Source: Deroplatys truncata (taxonomy: Eukaryota; Arthropoda; Insecta; Mantodea; Mantidae). From it: DNA of 64,000 nt. The position numbers and the translations under genes were made by a program. Under the pieces are notes generated by a model. The model was not told where the DNA came from. It saw only the letters and a list, made by a program, of their open reading frames with translations, and searched no databases. The stretch spans positions 59,008,364-59,072,363 of the forward strand of contig CM060980.1 of the NCBI GenBank assembly GCA_030765065.1, in the 5' to 3' direction. Below, piece after piece: positions 3,116 through 62,520 of this stretch. The number at the start of each line of letters is the position of its first letter. The stretch's first letter is position 1.

Positions 3116-5354
3116 TTCCTTAAACTGTGAATAAATTCCAAACGACAGAACGCTGTTTAACATGCATGAAATTCATTCATACAATTTTCTGTAAGTTTCT
3201 AAGTTATCGGTTTACTTTGATAAACATACACGAGAAACCTCACAAAAGGATGCATTGTAATTTAGTCCTAAGGATAATAGGATTTATAATATCCCTTAAA
3301 CACTAAATTTTCAATCCGTCGTGTATTTCTCACTGTATTTTTGCTTCTTTATGTCTACTTAACATATAAAAACAATATTTTAAATTTAGAGCTTAAATGC
3401 AAATACATAAAATCCAAGAAGACAGCACACAATGGTCACAAATTCTAAAAAACGAATTTTAGAATGATATTTTAAAGCGCTTTCAAGCGTTTAATAAAAA
3501 GGACAACAAATCATGGTAGTGAAAACCGGGAAAGCGTGAGGTCGCCACTCTAGCAGCTGGTTAGTTGCTTGCTGTACACGATAGATGGCCCCACCGTCAT
3601 CCGGCGGCACTAGTGTTTCGGAGAGAAGAGCAGACCAAGGATTAAGACTAACAGTGATTATTTCCTACTCTACCATCTCCATAACACTAACCCCTCCAGC
3701 ACTAGCGAAAAAAATAACAGCAAAGCTCATCACTTTTCCTGCTTCCTTTCCAAAATCTACCCAACACATATACCACGTAAAGTGAAAATGGGATAAAAAC
3801 ACAAAACAGGATGGGTGAAAAATAAAAACGACAAAGGCAGAAGCACAATTAGATTAATTTCATTACGTAGATGGATGGATTTAATATATGAGGACGGGCA
3901 GGGAAGGTAAGCCTGGAGAGAGAGGGAGAGACGGAGAGAAAGAGTGAGAGAGGATATGTGGTGATATTGCAGCCACCTAGTAGCCCCGTGCTACCTTGCC
4001 AGCAGTAAGCCTTGATATCATAATTAATGGATAGGGTACCGGGGAGATTCCGCGTAGTTGGTGTGTAATCAAAAGCATGCACATATCATAGGGATTTCTC
4101 TTTGTGCGGCGTGGAGATCAGAAAATGTAAACTGAGAGTTATCAGGGAGCAACTCAAGTTCTTTTTACAAAAGTAACAATCCCTACCAGCCATTCGTTTG
4201 CCCTTTTCCCAACTCTATCGTCTCCCCGCCAACGGCTAGATTGATCGTCTCTGGCCGGCAAAAGAGCACAAGCTTAGTAATGTATAGACTGATAAAAAGT
4301 GGTTTTTTTTCTCGTGAAAAGGGGCTTTGAATAAACTCTCCTGGGATTGTCAACTTTGTTTCTGCTGTCAAATTACTGTTACTTGGTGGGGGAGTTTACT
4401 AATTTTAGATAACTTTTTGTTTGGGCAGCCTTGTCTTCCTCCAAGGGCAACCCAGCATCCTTTACTGTTAATTTCAAAGAGAAATGAAAATAGATTAGCA
4501 GGAGGTCTTTGACTTTCCAAGCAGGTTTCAAAAAGGTAGGGAGAGGAAAGGTGCCCTTAAGAGGGGCTTAAGGTAGCATTATTTCATTTGCTCATTTCAT
4601 TAAAGAAAGTAAGAGTATCTGATTTCTAATATCCGATTAACAAGTTTCAGTCTTAGTGGATACTTCTTAGTATCAATTTTAATACAATCACTAAGAGGAT
4701 GAGACGAAACCACTGGTGATGAACAGCGGTGAAGGGCATTGGAAATGTAAAACAAGTTTTGACATTTTCTGCTTTTAATGGAATAAAACTGTGTACTTCT
4801 TTCTGATTCATATATATGGTTTATTGGCAATTTAGAAGACTTAACCCTTTAAAAAAATTTAATGGACTTGAGTCACTTTGAATTTGGAGATTCACGCCCC
4901 TTTTAACACCCCAACGTGCGCTATCTGCTGAAAGGGAATCAGAGGTTTCATCTAAGGAGTGCCTGGAGGCAGCTAATCATGACAACTTCCCTGGAATGCA
5001 CTAATGCTAATCATACCTTAGAACTAAGTTTCAGCTGCAATTATCTCAAAACTACATTATTCCAAATGTACGTCTCTTTTATTAAAAACTGTAAATTGTC
5101 CAAGAGAAATTTTATCACATTTGTGTGAGATTATGTATTACACACACTGAACTACAGTTCTATTTTTAAGTTGAATAGATTTTTTATTAAAAAAATGTAA
5201 GTTTTAGTTCATTTTCTTCAGAGAGGAGCAAATAATATTTAGAAGAGAAAAACTGACAGCTTAATTTCCTTAATTCAGTTATATAAGGCAGAGTATCTTC
5301 ATATGCAGTAAACACTTGAGCGCTCTGCTTCAACTGGTGGCCGAAATTGAAATT
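3116..5354. other. Unassigned, with a GA-rich tract
   Basis: No gene recognised. 3540-3640 is locally GC-richer. 3915-3960 is an imperfect (GAGA)n microsatellite on the plus strand. Short open frames at 3585-3785, 4327-4512 and 4916-5128 carry no motif I can name. Confidence 0.4.
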
Positions 5355-5630
5355 AAGTTTTTATTTATGGACGCTCTTTAACTACTATGGTTTTTAGCGT
5401 CTGTATTGGGCGTGAAATACCGGTAATTTTGCTCAGATGCCTCTTTATCACGCTTAAGGTTCTTTTACGTGCCGTAAATCTAGACACGGGACCACCGGCT
5501 TTACTTCCTTCCAAAGAAAGCCATGCTAAGGATTTTCACGCCCGAAAAAAATACATCGCCCTCCGCCGGATTTGAACCCGCGACCTTGGGAACTAGAGGC
5601 TAGTACGGTACCACTAGTCCACGGAGGACG
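5355..5630 (-). repeat. SINE A
   Basis: tRNA-derived SINE on the minus strand. The head at 5630-5560 has A-box-like tggactagtggta and B-box-like ggtcgcgggttcaaat. The body holds the words cttttacgtgccgtaaatct and ttgggcgtgaaa (as seen on plus), and the end is an A-rich ccataaataaaaac run. Two further copies at 31213-31488 and 62095-62382 show the same order and length (about 280 bases). Confidence 0.85.
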
Positions 5631-5834
5631 ACTTCTAAAGCGAACCTAGAAATAAAAAATTCTTTTACCTTTTATCAAGCAAACTTTAAATGTTTTTAAT
5701 TTTTCAGGCAAACTGCAGACAAATAATTGTGTAAATTTAAAGAGGGATATAGACATATATACTGACAATACGGTAAGTGTTTTGAATTGATCTGTCAATT
5801 ACAGTCAAAATGTTTCTTGGGTTGGTAAAGGTAT

Positions 5835-6823: not shown

Positions 6824-7178
6824 GGGCGGCGCGGTGGCCGAGTAGTTAGATCTCTCACCGACGCGACCCGGGTTCAATCCCAGGGACCCGCTTGTGGGAT
6901 TTGTGGTGCACAAAGCGGCGTCTGGACGGGTTTTCTCCGGGTTCTCCGGTTTCCCCCGCCATTCATTCCGCCAACCATTCACCTTTCCTTTCATTCATTT
7001 CACCATCATTTCGTTTCATCTACTTCCTTCCTCCCATTCCAGTCATCGGGCTGATCACCCATCCTGGATATTCTGTCTGCTCCTCGACGGGCCTCTGACC
7101 CCAGGCACCCGCCGTAAGTCCTGGGGGATGTAAGTCCTACGTGAGAGGAGGTTAAACAGAGAGAGAGAGAAAGAAAGT
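6824..7178 (+). repeat. SINE D
   Basis: The tRNA-like head 6828-6895 contains gcggtggccgagtagttag (A box) and gacccgggttcaatccc (B box). A C/T-rich body with cattcattccgccaaccattcac follows, then a tail with gcacccgccgtaagtcctgg and a GA-rich end (7160-7178). The tail is shared with the minus-strand copy at 53600-53760. GC-rich relative to its surroundings, as expected of a relatively young insertion. Confidence 0.8.
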
Positions 7179-14236: not shown

Positions 14237-15522
14237 TAAAGCGTCTTTCAACAAGAGTGTCCTATTTTTAACATGTGATAGCTGCCGTTGTTATTGAGTT
14301 ACATCAGTCATTTTTTCATGTGGTTACAGTTATTATTGACAAATAGCCATGGAACGTTACAAAATTCAGCAACGCGTAGAAATTGTGAAAATTTTATTAT
14401 CAAAGTGGATCATCTGTTCGCCAAACCTTCCGTGTATTGCGTTAAGTTTACGGTGTGCATAATCGTCCCTGCGGGAGAACGATTCGGCGTTTGATCGATA
14501 AATTTGAAAGAAGTGGTTCTGTCAGCGAACAAAGAACGCCTGTACACGCTCCAACGAAAACATTAGGCGCCGTTCGTGAGAGTGCACGCGAGAACGGAAA
14601 CAAATCAATTGCTCGTCAAGAGCAAAAATTGGGACTTTCGCCGACCACAATTTGGCGAATTCTGCATCCTGACTTGAAGTTTCACACTTAAAAAATGGTG
14701 TTAACTCAACAACTAAAGCCCAATGACCATAGGTTGCGCCGTGTATTCGCTGACTGGGCTATGGAGCAATTGGAAGCTGACCCAGATTTTTGTCGAGAAA
14801 TCATCTTCAGCGACGAAGCCCACTTTTGGATGGATGGTTGTGTTAACAAACAAAACTGTCGCTATTGGAGCAATCACAATCCAATGCAGATTCAAGAACG
14901 ACCACTTCATCCCCAAAAGGTTAGTGTGTGGTGTGGGTTTTGGTATGGTGGAATCATTGGTCCATACTTTTTCCAAGATGAAGATGGAGAAGCTCTGTCA
15001 ATGGAGAAAGATACTGGGCTGTTATAAGGGATTATGTTTGGCCTCAATTGAATGGTATGGATCTCAGAAACATCTGGTTCCAGCAACATGGTGCCACATG
15101 TCATACTGTTCTAAAAACAAACGATCTTTTGAAGGAGAAGTTCAGAGGTTTCATCATTTCCCGTGGTGATGATTTTAACTGGCCCCCGAGGTCATGTGAT
15201 TTAACGCCGTTGGATTACTTCTTGTGGGTTATGTTAAATCTCGAGGTTAGGTCAACAAGCCAGAAACAGTAAATGATCTTATGAATAACATCACGCGTGT
15301 TATTCGTGAAGTTGGATCTAATTTACTTTCTTCTGTCATTGAAAATTGGGTCAACCGTATACGCGCAACCCAACGAAGTCGCGGCGGTCACTTAACTGAT
15401 GTTCTTTTCTACACATATGACATTAATTATGTTCCAAAATACAAAAAGAAACAAACCTCTATCATTTATAGAACGTATTTTATTTAAGTTCAAAGATAGG
15501 ACACTCTTGTTGAATGACCCTA
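14237..15522 (+). mobile_element. Tc1/mariner element, complete but inactive
   Basis: Bounded by inverted repeats. The left end has TTCAACAAGAGTGTCCTAT (14248-14266) and the reverse complement of the right end gives the same 19 bases (15496-15514). The outermost 8-10 bases are imperfect, and a TA dinucleotide stands at each presumed edge (14237-14238 and 15521-15522), as expected of TA-targeted insertion. The total of about 1.29 kb is normal for the superfamily, and a broken transposase fills the interior on the plus strand. Confidence 0.9.
14349..15487 (+). pseudogene. DD41D-type mariner transposase, degenerate
   Basis: Starts MERYKIQQRVEIVKI, then a frameshift near 14393 and a stop. The second helix-turn-helix part is CGRTIRRLIDKFERSGSVS (about 14468). 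Catalytic-domain words: IIFSDEAHFWMDG (first Asp, 14812-14814), NKQNCRYW, HPQKVSVWCGFWYGGIIGPY, a frameshift near 14990, WFQQHGATCHT, NWPPRSCDLTPLDYFLW (third acid, 15213-15215), another frameshift near 15235, and a C-terminus with RSRGGHLTDV. The second catalytic Asp is His (CAT at 15087-15089). The spacing from it to the third acid is 41 residues in one uninterrupted frame. The lost acid plus frameshifts make it dead. Confidence 0.9.
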
Positions 15523-21559: not shown

Positions 21560-21880
21560 ATAGAATACAAAACAAAAACCAATATCGAGATTTCATGGAA
21601 TAAATGTTTGGAATACCTTGAATAAAAAACGAAATTTAAGAAAATGCGTGTATCTGGCACCTCTACTTAAGTCTGCAAATTCTAAGGTAAACTAATATTT
21701 TCAGAAACATCTGCTACCTCAAAAACCCTTTACACAGACCACCGTTTTTCCTTTCTCAATTTGACTATTAACGATTTTGATTAATGTATCGTATGTTTGA
21801 GGTACTGAAATGATTAATAAAACGTTTAAATAGAACGTTTTTGTAAATGACCTTTAATCTTGTTCATTCTCTTTGAAATT
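21560..21880 (-). mobile_element. Family M, degraded fragment
   Basis: Reversed M sequence around caatatcgagatttcatgg and accttgaataaaaaacg (21565-21630), then ctacctcaaaaaccctttac. Heavily decayed, and the terminal repeat is not preserved. Confidence 0.5.
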
Positions 21881-30104: not shown

Positions 30105-30660
30105 TCTCAACGACCACTCAAGCGATTTTGATAATTCTTTCACTATCGAAAATCCCTGTCAGTTTACCAGCTATAGAGGATTATACAAAATTCCTTTGAA
30201 ATGAAATGGGCTGTACAGGCTATTCCCAGAAAATTCAAGCTATACATTTTATTTGTTATGTAAATATATTAAATGTGTGGTATTTTAATCAAAATCGTTA
30301 GAATCATTTTAATAAATCAAAATTTTCGAAAAATGCTCCATCTAAAGGGTAGTTTGTGGTGGGGAGTTTCTTGAAAATATTCATCTCTCTTAAATCTCAT
30401 TCTCTTATCTTGTATCTGTGGAAGATACTGAACTTGAATACCAAATTTGATATTTATCCGACATTTCGTTTTGAGGTATACTGTCCACAGACACACACAC
30501 ACACACACACGCACGCACGCACACATGGACCTTTTTCTAAAAAAAATCCATTCTTTAGATTTAGGGGCCCTTAAAACATGCATTTCCTATAAAAATTCAC
30601 CATGGCTGGAATGAAATACCTTCTCTGCCTACAATGTACGTGGTAGAGAAAGTAAAAAAC
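30105..30660 (+). mobile_element. Family M body without head
   Basis: Starts inside the body near aagcgattttgataattc and runs through aattcaagctatacattttatttg, the CA/CG tract (30489-30522) and the terminal gtagagaaagtaaaa (about 30655). The 5' part appears replaced by the tetranucleotide repeat. Confidence 0.75.
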
Positions 30661-31212
30661 TACAGTCGTTGTTGTTTATAACAGTAATTCTTTAATTGTC
30701 ATTTATCAAATGCTGCAGATGTGTGTAATGAAACAGAGTCAAAACCTCTGAATAACCTTTATTCTAATTCTATAAATGTATGCACTGAAGTTCCTGAATG
30801 CCAAAAACTTGTAAACCCTTAGGCAACTTTCCCCAGCAAGTTTTGTTTTGTTTCCTTTGTGTTTATGTTGCAATCAAATTCGTTGACAGGGCGTGTTAAA
30901 TAATTGTATAGAGACAAGTATAGAAACCAGTGAACCGATCTTTTATATTAACAATAACTGACAAGATTACTTCTTTCGATGGTTGCGGACCAATGTGTCT
31001 TTTAAAAAGAGGCAGCTTTAAGCTCTATAGACCCCGGCTCATTTGAGGATCATTTCATCGTCTGACATGACCTATCAGGATAAAGGACGTTAAACTTATA
31101 ATAATCAGTAATAAAAAGAACAAAAATAAAACCGATTTGCAGAGAAAAATCCGATATCTCAATATGACATATATACCAACCATATTGGAAAAGAGAAGCT
31201 GGAAAAAATTGT
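30661..31212. other. Unassigned
   Basis: AT-rich. No gene or repeat recognised. Confidence 0.4.
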
Positions 31213-31488
31213 GTTTTATTTATTGGACGCTCTTTAACTGCTGTGGTCCTTAGTGTCCTATTGGGCGTGAAAAACCGGAAATTTTGCTCAGAGGTCTCTT
31301 TATCGCTTGAGGATCTTTTACGTGCCGTAAATCTACGACACGGGACCACCTGCTTTACTTTCCTTACTAAGGATTCCCATGCTAAGGATTTTTACGCCCG
31401 TAAAAATCCATCGCCCTCCGCCGGGTTTGAATCCGTGACCTCGGGAACTAAAGGCTAGCATGGTAACCACTATACTGCGCAAGCCGAT
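31213..31488 (-). repeat. SINE A
   Basis: Second minus-strand copy. B box reversed as ccgggtttgaatccgtgacc (31421-31440), A box reversed as tggtaaccactatactg. The rest is collinear with 5355-5630. The A box differs from the other copies (gcagtatagtggttacc), so it may represent a subfamily. Confidence 0.85.
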
Positions 31489-31956: not shown

Positions 31957-33300
31957 TACCGGGTGATTTTAAATGATGAACCCAGTTATAAATTTCGTAT
32001 TTATCAAAGCACAAATCCAACTTGAAATATCTGTATAACAATGAAAAGAGGAAGTTTCAAAGATTTTTTATTTTTTTTTGGCGGGCGGTGATGGTTTTAG
32101 AAACGGCCGGTAGAGTGCTCGCGCAATAGGTCGCCATTGCGTTTCACTGTCAGTACGTAGTGAGATGGCTACTGTGGAACACAAGGTTTTCTGTGTTATT
32201 GAGTTCGCAAAAAGTGAGTCGCAAATTGTAATGCACCGGACATTTCGTAGCAAATTCGGTATTGAACCACCAACTAGAAAAAACATTAGCCGTTGGTTTA
32301 CGCAATTTAAACAGACTGGAAGTGCGTGTAAAGGAAAAAGCACAGGCCGACCGCATGTGTCAGAGGAGGACGTCAGACGGATTGAAGACAGTTTTGTTCG
32401 CAGTCCACGTAAGTCTACCCATAGAGCTAGTAGAGAACTTGGAATACCCCAACCAAATGTATGGAAAGTTCTGAAACGGCATTTGCTGTACAAGTCCTAC
32501 CGATTACAACTTGTGCAGGCTCTTAAAAGAGAAGCGTCTCGAATTTTGTGGTTATGTGCTAGGAATGATCTAGGATGACGCGTTTCTACAGCGTATCATT
32601 TTTAGCGATGAAGCGACTTTCAACCTTTGGAAAAGTCAACAGACTCAATGTTCGCATATGGGGTTTGCAAAATCCACATTCAAAATTGCAACACGAAAGA
32701 GATTCACCTAAAGTAAACGTGTTCTATACCTTATCCCGTACAAAGGACAATTTTTCTTTGCGAAAAAGCTGTGACTAGAATAGCGTACCTGGACATGTTG
32801 GAACAATGGCTGTTCCCTCAAATTATGGAAGATTCACAGGACCTCATTTTCCAACAGGATGGATCTCCGTCGTATTGGCACAGCGATGTACGAGGCTTTT
32901 TGAATGAATCCCTTCCTCAGCGCTGGATAGGTCCCAGGGTAAATGAAGACCTGGCTCTTTCACTTCTGGCCACCGAGATCTCTTGATCTCATCCCATGTG
33001 ACTATTTCTTATGGGGTTATGTTAAGGAAGCTGTTTACGTCCCGCCTCTACCTACAACTCTGGACGGAACCGTATCACTGCTGCGTAACAGAAGATACGC
33101 TTGCTCGTGTGTGGGACGAGTTTGGCTATCGCGTAGATGTTTGCCGTGCAACAAATGGTGGACACATTGAACATTTATAATGTAGTAAACAAAACTTTGA
33201 AAATTCCTCTCTTTATTGGTATAAAGATGCTTCATATTAGATTTGTACTTTAATAAATACGAATTTTATAAAATGGTTCCATGATTAAAATCAGTCTGTA
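31957..33300 (+). mobile_element. Second Tc1/mariner element
   Basis: Imperfect inverted repeats of about 60 bases. The left starts accgggtgattttaaatgatg (31958) and includes aaatttcgtatttatcaaagc. The right end (33299 reversed) starts acagactgattttaatcatgg and includes aaattcgtatttattaaag. A TA stands at each edge (31957-31958 and 33299-33300). Length about 1.34 kb. It encloses a broken plus-strand transposase unrelated in detail to the one at 14.3 kb. Confidence 0.85.
32165..33180 (+). pseudogene. Mariner-type transposase, frameshifted
   Basis: Begins MATVEHKVFCVIEFAKSES. The DNA-binding part has the words RKNISRWFTQFKQTGS and GKSTGRPHVSEEDVRRIEDS, and the first 137 codons are open. Then, in shifting frames: RIIFSDEATFNLWK (first acid, 32607-32609), QHERDSPKVNVFY, RIAYLDMLEQWLFPQI, LIFQQDGSPSYWH (second acid, 32858-32860), an extra base near 32966, WPPRSLDLIPCDYFLWGYV (third acid, 33000-33002), and a C-terminus with GGHIEHL ending at 33180. 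All three acids are preserved but at least four frame breaks make it inactive. Confidence 0.88.
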
Positions 33301-45473: not shown

Positions 45474-46085
45474 AGGCCTGGTCATAACCTAATACCTAAC
45501 AAAAACCATGATTTGTTCATAGAAATGTATATGAAATATCGACGGATGCTGTATTTCTCATTTTCGTAACCTCCCATCAACGGTCTTCAAAATCCTGAAT
45601 TGAATAACTTGTCTTTCAGTGGCGAAAGCATATGCGAATCGTGATTTAATTTTAGATTAAAGCACAGTAAATTCAAATTGAAATCCTTGTCCTTTCTCTT
45701 TTGTTCAGTATTTATTTCATAACACAGAAGCTCCAAAGTCATCACATAATACCTCTGATAGCAGCATTCAACGAAACTGTGTATAAGAGGATCTTCCAAC
45801 ACAGATCACGTAATCTTCTTAGCTGGTAATCAAAAATATCTCTTGAGCAATTTCTGAAGTTACACCGAACAACATTTTCTCTTTATATAATTATTTGACA
45901 TACACCAGTAATTAATTCGGTTACAACATACCGAGAGAATACAGCAACATTTCTAACATAAGGATTATTAAAAGGTTTTGGCATCCACCTAATTCACTAT
46001 AGCGTTATGAAAAATTAGAATAAAAGTTACTCTGGTGATTTAATACTAAATGCTACATACATATGTAATATTTGAATAAAAAATA
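45474..46085. other. Unassigned
   Basis: AT-rich. The 71-codon minus-strand frame at 45587-45802 is unrecognised. Confidence 0.4.
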
Positions 46086-49000
46086 AAATAAAAATCTGAT
46101 GTGTTACACTCACATGACTTTCTCTACTCTTGTACAAACTATTTTTACAAACGCTTATTCTCCATCTACTTCATGTTAACCGAGATAAACATTTGCAGAC
46201 TCTATCTTATTGCTAATTTTCTTGCAGAAGTAAGCGGAATATATATTTACAAGGGCAATATAGAAATACAGTAGGCTTTAAGCACATATATATCTCTTAA
46301 TAGCTGGTTGCTAGGTGCAGCACCATTCCCTTTCCCACAGATTAATACTCTTTGCATACCCAAGACAAAAACATCTGATGTGTTACACTCACATGACTTT
46401 CTCTACTCTTGTACAAACTATTTTTACAAACGCTTATTCTCCATATGCTGCATGTTAATCGAGATATCGAGATGTCAATCTTATTGGTAATGTACATGTA
46501 GATGCAAGGGGAATATGCTAGATTTTAAGCGATAGTCAAATATTTTAACGTTGGTTGCTATGTGGCGCATTCCATTCTCTTTGCATGTCCAGGACATAAA
46601 AAAAATGAATAACGAATTTGAGAAAAAGTATTGGAAAATTTAAGGGAATAACAAGCAATATCTGAAAACGGTTCACTCAACAAAAGAAATGTGTATAACA
46701 TAAATTGTGTATTTTAACGCGATCTACATTTTTTGTGTAGTAAAATTTTGTCTCTCTCTTATGGTATACCAGTTATGCAAAAGTCGTTCACAGTGAAGAA
46801 TACTTTTGGAGACATTCCCAGAAAATTCAAGATATACATTTTATTTGTCATAAAAGTATCTTAAACATATAATATTTTAATCAAAATCGTTAGAGCCATA
46901 TTTGAGAAAATTAAAATTTTCGAAAAATGTTCCATGTAAAGGGTAGTCTGGGGTGGGGGGATTTTCTTGAAAACCTTCGTGTCGCATCTCTGGAAGATAC
47001 CTAAATACCAAGTTTGGTGTTTATACGACTGTTCGTTTCTGAGTTATGCTGTTCACAGACACACAGACACACAGACACACAGACAGACACACACACGGAC
47101 ATGTTTCCAAAAATGCTTTTTTTGCATTCAGTGAGTCTCAAAACATGTATTTCCGGTGAAATCTCGGTATCGAATTTTTGGGTGGAATACAATACTTCCC
47201 CTACTTACTATACGTAGTAGAGAAAGTAAAAATGAATAACGAATCCCCATTTGAGAAAATAATTATTGAAAAATTTAAGGGAATAACAAGCAATAACTCG
47301 AAATTGGTTCACTCAACAACAAAAATGTATATGATATAAATTGTGTATTTTAACGCGATCTACATTTTTGTGTAATAAAATTTTGTCTATCTCTTATGGT
47401 TTACCAGTTACGCAAAAGTCGTTCACAATAAAGAATGTTTTGGAGACATTCCCAGGAAATTCAAGATATACATTTTATTTGTCATAAAAATATATTACAC
47501 ATATGATATTTTAATCAAAATCGTTAGTGCCATTTTTGAGAAAATTATAATTTTCGAAAGATCTTCCATGTAAAGGGTACTCTGGTTTGGGGGATTTTCT
47601 TGAAAACCTTCGTGTCGCATCCTTGGAAGATACTGAACCTAAATACCAAGTTTGGTGTTTATGCGACTGTTCGTTTCTGAGTTATGCTGTTCACAGACAG
47701 ACACACAGACAGACACACAGAGGGACATGTTTCTAAAAATGCTTTTTTTTTGGATTCAGGGGGTCTCAAAATATGTATTTCTGGTGAAATCTTGGTATCG
47801 AATTTTTGGGTGGAATACAATACTTCCCCTACTTACTATACGTAGTAGAGAAAGTAAAACTCTGATGTGTTACACTCACACGACTTTCTCTACTCTTGTA
47901 TAAACTATTTTTACAAAACGCTTATCCTCCATCTACTTCATGTTAATCGGGATAAACATTTGCAGACTCTATCTTATTGCTAATTTTCTTGTAGATGTAA
48001 GAGGAATATATATTTACAAGGGCAATATAGAAATACAGTAGCGTTTAAGCACATACATATTTCTTAATAGCTGGTTGCTAGGTGCAGCACTATTCCCTTT
48101 GCCACAGATTAATACTCTTGCATATCCAAGACAAAAAAATGAATAACGAATTCCCATTTGAGAAAATAAGTATTGAAAAATTTAAGGGAATAACAAGCAA
48201 TATCTCGAAAATGGTTCACTCAACAAAACAAATGTACATGACATAAATTGTGTATTTTAACGCGATCTACATCCTTTGTGTAGTAAAATTTTGTCTATTT
48301 CGTATGTTTTACCAGTTTACCAAAAGTCGTTCACAATGAAGAATACTTTTGGAGACATTTCCAGAAAATTCAAGATATACATTTTATTTGTCATGAAAAT
48401 ATCTTAAACATATGATATTTTAATCAAAATCGTTAGAGCCATTTTTGAGAAAATTAAACTTTTCGAAAAATGTTCCACGTAAAGGATACTCTGAGGTATG
48501 GGGATTTTCTTGAAAACCTTCGTGTCACATCCTTGGAAGATACTGAACCTAAATACCAAGTTTGGTGTTTATGCGACTGTTCGTTTCTGAGTTATGCTGT
48601 TCACAGACAGACACACAGACACACAGAGACACACAGGGACATGTTTCTAAAAATGCTTTTTTTTGGGATTCAGGGGGTCTCAAAACATGTATTTCCGGTG
48701 ATATCTCGGTATCGAATTTTTGGGTGGAATACAATACTTTCCCTACTTACTATACGTAGTGGAGAAAGTAAAAATGAATAACGAATTCCCATTTGAGAAA
48801 ATAAGTATTGAAAAAATTAAGAGAATAACAAGCAATATCTCGAAAATGGTTTACTCAACAAAAAATATGTATATGACATAAATTGTGTATTTTGACACGA
48901 TCTACATTTTTTGGGTAGTAAAATTTTGTCTATCTCTTATGGCTTACCGGTTATGCAAAAGCTGTTCACAATGAAGAATACTTTTGGAGACATTCCCAGA

Positions 49001-50046
49001 AAACTCAAGATATACATTTTATTTGTCATAAAAATATCTTAAACATATGATATTTTAATCAAAATCATTACAGCCATTTTTGAGAAGATTAAAATTTTTG
49101 AAAACTGTTCCATGTAAAGAGTAATCTGGGGTGGGGGGGATTTTGTTGAAAACCTGGAAGATACTGGAAGATACTGAACCTAAATAATAAGTTCGGTGTT
49201 TATCCGACTGTTCGTTTCTGAGTTATGCTGTTCACAGACAGACAGACAGACACACGGACACGTTTACAAAAATGCTTTTTTTGGATTTAGGGGGTCTCAA
49301 AACACATATATCCGGTGAAATCTCGGTATCGAATTTTTGGGTGGAATACAATACTTCCCCTACTTACTATACGTAGTAGAGAAAGTAAAATGAATAAGGA
49401 ATTTGAGAAAAAGTATAAGTATTGGGAAATTTAAGGGAATAACAAGCAATATCTCGAAAACGGTTCACTCAACCCAAAAAATGTTTATGACATAAATTGT
49501 GTATTTTAACGCGATCTACATTTTTTGTGTGGTAAAATTGTGTCTATCTCTTATGGTTTACCAGTTATGCAAAAGTCGTTCACAATGAAGAATACTTTTG
49601 GAGACATTCCCAGAAAATTCGAGATATACATTTCATTTTTCATGAGAATGTCTTAAACATATGATATTTTAACCAAAATCGTTATAGCCATTTTTGAGAA
49701 AATTAAAATTCTCGAAAAATGTTTCATGCAAAGGGTAGTCTGGGGTGGGGGATTTTCTTGAAAACCTTCGTGTCGCATCTCTGGAAGATACTAAACCTAG
49801 ATACCAAGTTTGGTGTTTATCCGACTGTTCGTTTCTGAGTTATGCTGTTCACAGACACACAGACATACAGACATACACACAGACACACAGACATACACAC
49901 AAACACAAACACGGACATGTTTCCCAAAATGCTTGTTTTGGATTCAGGGAGTCTCAAAACATGTATTTCCGTTGAAATATCGCTATCGAATTTTTGGGTG
50001 GAATACAATACTTCCCTACTTACTATACGTAGTAGAGAAAGTAAAA
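46086..50046 (+). mobile_element. Family M tandem array
   Basis: The order is head (46086-46368), head variant (46369-46604), body 1 (46605-47231), body 2 (47232-47859), head (47860-48138), body 3 (48139-48773), body 4 (48774-49390), body 5 (49391-50046). Bodies are 617-656 bases, collinear and very similar, differing mostly in the CA/CAGA tract. Each body ends gtagtagagaaagtaaaa or nearly so. Where two bodies abut, the join is always ..gtaaaa|tgaataacgaat, and where a head precedes a body the join is ..gacaaaaaa|tgaataacg. No coding capacity. The head word actttctctact and the tail word agtagagaaagt are inverted complements. Confidence 0.9.
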
Positions 50047-50283
50047 AAGCGCGATTCGCATACAAATATCGTATTGGCTTTTGTTTTGCTGTGTATTCTT
50101 CTCTCTTAGTTGTTAAATCGTGTATGTTGCTTGGAATGAAATATTGGAAGTTTTTGACTTATTACTGTGACGCATCAGCTATGGCTCGAGGTTATGGGGA
50201 GGTCTGCGTCGGGCAGTCAGAAACAAACAAAGAAAGTAGCGCTCGCCAGCGTAAATACCAGAAGCGCTATCGTCAGATAACCA

Positions 50284-50400
50284 GAAACCTCTGGAAGTTT
50301 CCTTCCGCCCGCCTTCAGAGGATGTCCAGAAAGTTCTAGAATGTTCAGTGCGAGACTCTATTGGCTATATAAGCGAGAGCTCTCGCGAGTGAGGGTCAGT
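50284..50400 (+). promoter_or_regulatory. Heat-shock-type promoter
   Basis: The proximal element 50329-50346 reads GAA-AG-TTC-TA-GAA-TG-TTC, four perfectly phased alternating units of a heat shock element. A distal one at 50284-50301 has GAA boxes at 50284 and 50294 and TTC at 50299, in phase. A reversed CCAAT word (attgg) lies at 50360, TATATAAG at 50366-50373, and the initiator TCAGT at 50396-50400 with its A 32 bases from the TATA start. This layout is that of inducible hsp70-type genes, bound by trimeric HSF. No heat-shock protein coding sequence follows. Alternative: the promoter of an LTR retroelement, some of which also carry such elements. Confidence 0.8.
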
Positions 50401-50807
50401 CTGTAGGTTGGTTAACGAGTGCGTTTCTGGTGCGATAAAAACCGCTGTTCTCCTAGCGAGGTTGTGACGACCACTCTGATAAGTAGTGAGCTGTTTCTGC
50501 GAGATATTGTAGAAGCCTTGTGTTCGATTCCCCAACGAGCGAACCGTCCGGAAGAAGAGATAACGTGTGCGTATTTCGTTACGCCGCTACGTCACGAAAA
50601 GTGATAGTTATAATTAAGTGAAGTGATAGTAAAGATTGGACTAGATAACATTAACGAAGAGACAGAAGTTAGTGAAGTGACAGTTAAAAACTGAACTAGA
50701 TCGCATTAACTGTAGCAGAACTTAGTGACGTGAGAGTTAAAAATTGAACTAGATCACATTAACGAAGAGACAGAAGTTAGTGAAGTGACAGTTAAAAACG
50801 AAATGTA
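50398..50807 (+). other. Leader of the heat-shock promoter, truncated
   Basis: About 410 bases downstream of the initiator. From 50600 to 50801 it is built of degenerate tandem units of roughly 60 bases around agttagtgaagtgacagttaaaaac and actagatcacattaacgaagag. Such A-rich, low-structure leaders are typical of heat-shock mRNAs. The unit ends at aaaaacgaaatgtag, where family M sequence takes over, so any coding region is gone. The 62-codon frame at 50419-50604 lies in the leader and is unrecognised. Confidence 0.6.
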
Positions 50808-51310
50808 GATAAATACCAAAACTTGATGTTTAAGTTGAGTTACTTCCTAAGTTTGGATACGTAGACCTTCAAGAAAATTTCCCCACCCAAACAACATGAA
50901 AAAATTTCGATATTTTTTAGCACTCAAATATTTATCTAACAATTTTAATTAAAATACAACACATTTAAGATATTTACATGACAAGCAACTGGTACATAAA
51001 CCTTGAATTTTCTGGCAATAGCCTGTTAAGTTCTCTTCTTTCAGAAAGAATTTTGTATAATTTAAATAACTGCTACACCATAAGAGGTAGATAGGCATAC
51101 TATAAAAAAGATTTAGATCTCTTTGAAACAGGTAATTCATTTCCAATCTGGCATCAGTCATTTTCGCGATATCCATTATTATTGGTATCGATGCAGTTTC
51201 TTTTAACTCCTTTGTATCTACAACGAAATGTGTAAAGAAAATATATCTGCAAAGGTTTATCTGGATTAATATGAAATAGATAGAAAATAATATACGCAAT
51301 AATAACTTCT
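50808..51310 (-). mobile_element. Family M internal part
   Basis: Reversed M sequence starting inside the body at ataaataccaaaacttg and continuing through tttccccacccaaacaac, aagatatttacatgacaag and tatctggattaatatgaaatag. It ends within the head before the terminal word. The 3' tail is missing exactly where the truncated leader begins. Confidence 0.75.
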
Positions 51311-51501
51311 AGAAGCTATTTGAGAATAAACAATAATGGATAGAAAATTCATGAGAATACAATTCATCAGAATTTTATTTGATAAAACACTAAAACTACT
51401 ACTACTAACACAATAAGAGTAAAACGTTCATATCCTCTTGCTGCTATATATCAAAGAAAATAGAGCTTCCGTTATAAATACTAGCACAAAAATATATGTA
51501 T

Positions 51502-52332
51502 TCTGATGCGTTACATTCACATGCCTTTCTCTAACCTCTATTTTTCTTAGTGAATATACAAATTATTCTTACGAAAGTTTATTTTTCTATCCTTTTCATT
51601 TTAATTGAGATAAACCTTTGCAGAATACAAGGGAACAGCGATAGTCAATGTTTAAGAACTAGACGCCATATACTGGTCTTAAAATTGCATACTCTTTCCA
51701 TGCAATCGCGAGAAACAAGGGAAACTCGAGAGGACTAAAAAGCATGAATAAGTATTGAATAAATCGAATCATTAATAACTGTTATCTCGGAAATGGCTAC
51801 TGCCACAAAAATGTTATTCTTAATAAATTGTGTGTTTTAAAGATATCTACATTTTCTTTTTGTGTACTTCTCGTCTATCGCTTAATGTTTACCAGTTATA
51901 CAGGATTATGCAAAATTCCTTCAATGAAGAGCAGCTACAGGCTATTCCCCCGAAAAAAATTCAGGATACGCATTTTATTTGTCATAAATGTTTAACGCAT
52001 GATATTTTAATTAAAATCGTAAGAGGCTTATTTTGTAAAATAAAGCTGTTCGAAAAATGTTCCATGTAAATAGTTTTAGGGAATTTTTCTTGAAATCCTT
52101 CCTGTCGCATCTTTGAAAGCTACTGAATTTAAACACCAAGTTTGGCATTTATCCGAGATTTCCTTTTTGAGTTATTCTGTTAACAGACCCACACAGGAAT
52201 CCTTTTTAAAATCCTTTTTTTTTATTCAGGGCGGCCCAAAACCTGTATTTCCGGTGAAATCTCGGTATAGAATTTTTGGCTGGAATGCAGTACCTTCTCT
52301 ACCTAGTAGGTACGTGGTATGGAGAGCAAAAA
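51502..52332 (+). mobile_element. Family M, near-full copy, subfamily 2
   Basis: Head ctgatgcgttacattcacatg, terminal word ctttctctaac, body words ttggcatttatccgagatttc and cggtatagaatttttggctgg, tail ending tacgtggtatggagagcaaaa. The CA tract is almost lost. Closest to 28780-29695. Confidence 0.8.
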
Positions 52333-52463
52333 TCATATATTTCGCAACTTTGTACCGCCCAATACAGGTGCTGAAGCGTAAGTTTTCATTTTCCTTGCTA
52401 TTTTCATTTTGAAAGCCAATTTCGATAATGTGAAACAAAAGTAGATGATATCTATTGTAGTTC

Positions 52464-61889: not shown

Positions 61890-62520
61890 CTCATAATTAT
61901 CATCAAGAGTGTCATAGTCATTATCTTCATTGTCATCACCGTCACTTCTCATTATCACTGTCATCATGATTATTCTCGCCCTTATCGTCATCATCCTCAT
62001 CCCCATTACCACCAACATCACCATTACCTCCACCACCATTACGATCATCATCACACCACCACACCACCGCCATCATCATCATCATCACCACACCGTCGTC
62101 CTCCGTGGACTAGTGATACCGTGCTAGCCTCTAGTTCCCAAGGTCGCGGGTTCAAACCCGGCGGAGGGCGATGGATTATTTTTGGGCGTAAAAATTCTTA
62201 GCATGGCTTCCTTTGGAAGGGAAGTAAAGCCGGTGGTCCCGTGTCGTAGATTTACGGCACGTAAAAGAATCTCACACCTGATAAAGAGACCTCTGAGCAA
62301 AATTACCGGTCTTTCACGCCCAATATAATGGGGCGCTAAGGATCATCGTAGTTAAAGAGCGTCCATAAATAAAACTCAATTCAATTCACCAAAACACCAT
62401 CATCACCAGTATCACCACCACCATCATCACCATCACCACCATCATCACCACCACCAAAACCATCATCATCAACACCACCACCACACCATCACCACCATTA
62501 CCAATATCATCTATTGATCA
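61890..62520. repeat. CAT/CAC/ATT microsatellite, split by a SINE
   Basis: 61890-62093 and 62390-62520 are long imperfect trinucleotide tracts (cat, cac, att). All frames are open and give His, Ile, Thr or Ser runs, which are not proteins. The tract is interrupted at 62094-62382 by SINE A. Confidence 0.9.
62095..62382 (+). repeat. SINE A inside the microsatellite
   Basis: Best-preserved copy: A-box region ccgtggactagtgataccg, B box ggtcgcgggttcaaaccc, body gtgtcgtagatttacggcac and ctttcacgcccaatataatg, ending gtccataaataaaac. Both boxes are close to consensus, so it may still be transcribable by RNA polymerase III. Confidence 0.9.

Follow-up and report, generated by a model that had tools for sequence, protein, structure and literature searches.

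A putative heat shock gene promoter parted from its gene and joined to a reversed repeat copy in the mantis Deroplatys truncata

Introduction

What is a promoter with the architecture of an inducible heat shock gene doing between copies of a repeat family, and what would it now transcribe? The question is raised by a short segment within a 64,000-nucleotide stretch of the Deroplatys truncata genome (the window, to which all coordinates refer), where the original prediction placed an orphaned heat-shock promoter between copies of a repeat called family M. We consider it likely that the island at 50048-50799 (752 bp) represents the 5' end of an hsp gene that responded strongly to heat, probably one of the hsp70 type, and that it was cut off from its coding sequence by a break in the repeats of its untranslated region (UTR) and joined to a reversed M copy. 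Below, we set out the evidence for the promoter, its leader, and the joint, and weigh the other explanations against it.

Results

The proximal heat shock element (HSE) of the island (Table 1) includes a perfect four-unit element on the plus strand (50329-50346, 12/12 core letters) that is the only one of its kind in the 64-kb window. The distal element lies 45 bp away, start to start, so that the 5-bp phase is common to both. Both elements lie less than 400 bp upstream of the predicted start, in line with the definition for inducible insect hsp70-type genes (HSEs with three or more alternating 5-bp units in this range) given in the available part of PMC2871787, and the TATA box and initiator stand at the canonical distance for the 5' end of such a gene. 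For comparison, the hsp70 promoters of Stratiomys are described, in the portion of the source at hand, with TATATATA, 24 bp from the TATA box to the start, and a further 230 bp to the start codon (PMC3071340), and Drosophila hsp70 is described in part of another source as having GAGA sites upstream (PMC4336284); here, a palindrome that includes GAGAG and CTCTC lies between the TATA box and the initiator. It is this architecture that makes hsp70 the probable type of the gene. The perfect element, the second phased element, the TATA box, and the TCAGT initiator were all recovered as first proposed; the CCAAT box at textbook spacing was not, given that it is inverted (ATTGG) and sits beside the TATA box, and its role in the promoter is doubtful.

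A perfect four-unit HSE occurred in 4 of 200 shuffled windows (0.021 per shuffled window in a larger set), and the HSE by itself is therefore only moderately rare. The combination of a perfect HSE, a TATA box, and TCA[GT]T at loose spacing was found in none of 1,000 shuffled windows. When the HSE was relaxed to 11/12, 11 strand-level cases with TATA and initiator arose in 1,000 shuffles with both strands scanned, which is what a chance gathering of motifs has in its favor. Such a gathering is nevertheless extremely improbable, considering that no shuffle held the perfect HSE in this combination and that the second phased HSE and the ATG-free leader come on top of it. At the level of sequence, the promoter is genuine.

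The leader is A-rich (33.7% A) and repetitive, as predicted, and the first ATG after the start lies at 50803. An ATG-free outcome arose in 3 of 5,000 dinucleotide shuffles of the leader (shuffle mean, 5.5 ATG), in a test whose independence is lowered by the leader repeats. Across the window, 143 of 63,597 plus-strand segments of 406 bases were free of ATG, 58 of these 143 being the leader's own; on the minus strand the count was 197 of 63,597, and 72 of the 197 begin at 50579-50650 and cover the promoter and leader. Given that the minus strand is also ATG-free here, part of the ATG depletion may stem from base composition, which weakens the argument. A long leader lacking an upstream ATG, on a stretch whose opposite strand is partly ATG-free too, is as expected for a 5' UTR. 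The leader repeats also contain a higher-order duplication, in which 50630-50691 and 50738-50799 are 95% identical and 108 bp apart.

Table 1. Features of the promoter island and the flanking M copies (window coordinates; promoter positions relative to the predicted start)
Feature	Position	Strand	Details
Tandem array of M copies	46083-50047	+	From self-BLAST; ends at the family's shared terminus GAGAAAGTAAAA; adjoins the single-copy island
Upstream flank of promoter	50048-50283	+	No strong second copy; elsewhere in the window at best E 0.018 (21568-21593)
Distal HSE	50284-50301	+	Four units, 11/12 core letters
Proximal HSE	50324-50346	+	Five units, 14/15 letters, including the perfect four units
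Inverted CCAAT (ATTGG)	50360-50364	-	-38 to -34; 1 base off the TATA box
TATA box TATATAAG	50366-50373	+	-32 to -25
Palindrome GCGAGAGCTCTCGC	50373-50386		14 bp; GAGAG + CTCTC
Initiator TCAGT	50396-50400	+	-2 to +3; predicted start is the A at 50398 (+1)
Partial 5' leader	50398-50799	+	402 nt; no ATG
Leader tandem repeats	50617-50799	+	3' half of leader; period about 55 bp, 3.4 copies; last unit cut after 21 bases (50779-50799)
Junction overlap AAAAAC	50794-50799		Fits both leader repeat and M
Reversed M copy	50792-51371	-	About 180 profile positions missing at terminal end; holds ATG 50803 and AATAAA 51325

When a leader-repeat profile was built from the three complete units, its match to the fourth was confined to 50779-50799. 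The profile match alone is weak (12.1 bits, E 0.016), and all 21 bases of this cut unit are identical to those of the second unit. From the other side, three M profiles (12, 6, and 6 copies), built without the copy at the junction, begin to match at 50792, 50791, and 50793, respectively, with envelopes from 50774-50776, and the match begins at or before 50796 in all 12 pairwise alignments with M copies. The ATG is part of the 11-mer AAACGAAATGT, whose single other occurrence, on the minus strand at 30461, is within a different M copy; the shorter AAACGAAATG has a further minus-strand match at 7007, a site that does not belong to the M copies compared. Because the leader profile stops at 50799 and the M profiles start at 50791-50793, the ATG at 50803 lies in M. 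The claim that the leader runs to aaaaacgaaatg fails for the same reason, given that M begins at 50791-50796, and we rejected the ATG at 50803 as the start of an hsp gene. On these alignments, the Kozak-like start is part of M and the leader is cut within its own repeat; the true start codon is lost. The case serves as a warning that, where a repeat has been joined on, a convincing start codon context may come from the repeat.

The joint falls inside the leader repeat and inside M, with about six bases common to both. It therefore looks like a microhomology break and not like a clean M insertion, and the AAAAAC overlap suggests, we infer, microhomology-mediated joining or template switching. 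A simple insertion of M would show an M terminus and so does not explain the joint; a clean insertion was rejected, given that the terminus is missing there. What that terminus looks like is known from the other side of the island, where GAGAAAGTAAAA at 50047, compared across M copies, is a shared family end. Two further elements of the original prediction hold: the M array ends directly upstream of the island with this terminus, and the profiles place a partial, oppositely oriented M copy after the leader. The alignment of the latter reaches 51371 in the older subfamily profile, and the copy scores 185 bits against the old subfamily versus 113 against the young array. A further M copy lies at 51502-52335. 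In the upstream array, the M units follow one another head to tail, measure about 630 bp, and share both the terminus and an internal microsatellite of the CACAGACA type.

We also weighed an assembly error linking an hsp locus to an M repeat. The joint is flanked by repeats on both sides (leader units and M), where assemblers slip. The M copy to the right of the joint is, however, old and diverged by the scores above, which makes it less easily collapsed with others, and we regard such an error as very unlikely. A long terminal repeat, or some other mobile element with a heat-shock promoter, is a highly improbable identity for the island. The island does sit among repeats, and heat-activated plant elements such as ONSEN have been described (PMC8376061). 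However, the fragment ends inside its own repeat, and the island begins with AGCGCG after the M end; neither paired terminal repeats nor TG...CA ends were found, and the island is single copy within the 64-kb window.

A search of the 64-kb window for chaperone genes by tblastn gave no match to DnaK at E ≤ 10 and nothing clear for DnaJ and HtpG (best E, 0.53 and 4.8, respectively), and a phmmer chaperone search of the window gave none at E ≤ 5. The queries were all from Escherichia coli, with self-matches as positive controls for DnaK and HtpG only and none for DnaJ. Their scope was DnaK, HtpG, and DnaJ, so that small heat shock proteins and short or diverged remnants could escape. For these three families, the proposal that the window holds no hsp coding sequence is upheld. 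No Hsp70 coding sequence was found past the leader, where the sequence beyond 50799 is M, and the ATG frames in 50398-51400 reach no more than 38 amino acids. There was no match to Rfam at gathering scores and no tRNA in scans of the window; blastn of 50048-50803 gave no match among phages, and exact patterns from the leader and the M terminus each had 0 occurrences in viral_contigs. Ten of the 119 stop-to-stop frames of at least 75 amino acids were scanned with Pfam; no retroelement or chaperone domain was found in them, and 2 of the 10 carry DUF4817-type transposase domains. Elsewhere in the window, broken transposase-like frames lie at 14446-15269 on the plus strand, the first with a weak DUF4817 helix-turn-helix (HTH) match (E 0.00037, below the curated cut-off), and broken mariner-like transposase frames lie at 32114-33177 on the plus strand, with matches to DUF4817 (E 1.3e-07) and weaker HTH matches. 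Taken together, the promoter motifs and these transposase remnants point to DNA of an insect or another arthropod. A dispersed repeat of about 290 bp is present in three copies (5345-5632, 31207-31472, and 62095-62386) with 86-89% identity.

We also considered that the leader could be an intact untranslated first exon, with coding exons beyond the window and the M copy in or near a 5' UTR intron. Hsp90-type genes can carry an intron in the 5' UTR, and a general splice-site matrix ranks a donor-like CTGGTGCGA at 50430 in the top 1.8% of the GTs of the window; for CAGGTAATT, at 51132, the rank is within the top 0.8%. No strong donor is present near the leader's end, however, and at the joint a repeat unit is cut short and shares six bases with M. 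The E. coli queries, moreover, matched nothing of chaperone type over the 13 kb that follow, and we judge an intact first exon to be quite unlikely.

Discussion

The sequence gives good support for reading the island as an orphaned heat-shock promoter that has been separated from its gene. We propose that the DNA broke within the UTR repeats and that the broken UTR end became linked to the interior of a reversed M copy through about six bases common to both, so that the start codon and coding sequence were lost. What would remain of the gene is its promoter, with both HSEs, the TATA box, and the initiator, followed by 402 nt from the start of a long 5' UTR that is rich in A and free of ATG. 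The original prediction had raised the possibility of a gene decapitated by M, and this image is right in that the promoter was separated from the gene. It is the promoter end that was kept, however, and the gene body that was lost, and a simple M insertion is not borne out, given that the joint lies within the leader repeat as well as within M and shows no M terminus.

The promoter now points into antisense M. If it is still active, heat shock would bring HSF trimers to both elements, and Pol II, starting at 50398, would produce a short noncoding RNA composed of the leader plus antisense M. Heat-induced transcription into the repeats is a plausible prediction. With an ATTAAA (50948) and, after it, the first AATAAA (51325) as downstream signals, the simplest forecast is a transcript of about 0.6 to 0.95 kb. 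Such an RNA could have a use in the cell, perhaps by supplying small RNAs that act against M, in which case the locus would be a working heat-inducible noncoding RNA gene. The intact promoter motifs and the antisense M downstream fit this, and the available parts of two sources describe the Drosophila alpha-gamma element as a heat-induced Dm88/invader1 chimeric transcript from an Hsp70 promoter fragment (PMC1794594) and Hsp70 sequences as yielding germline piRNAs in Drosophila (PMC5972414). Intact motifs may, however, mean only that the break was recent, and we consider a working gene unlikely. We also consider it unlikely that the locus is a convergent, independent counterpart of the alpha-gamma element, in which a microhomology break gave an active hsp promoter to a repeat and heat-made antisense-M noncoding RNA feeds repeat silencing. 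Should the severed hsp promoter be transcribed, it would add a second, independent case of repeats capturing an hsp promoter and would demonstrate the ease with which heat can come to drive noncoding transcription of mobile DNA; a silent locus would instead be a well-preserved relic of an hsp gene with a readable break point.

Given that the alpha-gamma element and the repeat-damaged hsp70 promoters and leaders of Stratiomys are known, the kind of locus described here is already known; the case itself is new as far as the literature searched shows, in searches not aimed at this species. The hsr-omega locus gives rise to a heat-induced noncoding RNA with tandem repeats, which our locus would resemble by description, not by sequence, if it is transcribed; its repeats, unlike those of hsr-omega, lie within the leader and number only 3.4 copies. 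The remaining comparisons draw on the available portions of the sources cited. Transposon insertions in Drosophila hsp promoters (PMC6415491; PMC7168160) likewise show heat-shock promoter regions repeatedly damaged by mobile elements, but these stand beside intact genes, whereas the joint here is without an M terminus. In allele 71 of Stratiomys singularior hsp70S3, the 5' UTR of an hsp70 gene is also disrupted by repetitive sequence (PMC3071340); only the first 15 bp of that UTR are alignable and the gene is still attached, whereas our locus keeps 402 nt of leader but has lost the gene.

By analogy, the closest precedent is the alpha-gamma element of the Drosophila melanogaster Hsp70B region at 87C (alpha-beta repeats), where an Hsp70 promoter fragment drives a heat-shock transcript of Dm88 and invader1 (PMC1794594; also PMC1308810). 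That transcript is known and heat induced, whereas the locus here is known as DNA sequence; its repeats are Dm88 and invader1 rather than M; and Hsp70 genes lie on both sides of it, whereas none was found in the 64-kb window here. In both, an hsp promoter fragment, identified in our case by its motifs, is joined to repeats, nested in transposable-element sequence, and faces repeats instead of coding sequence.
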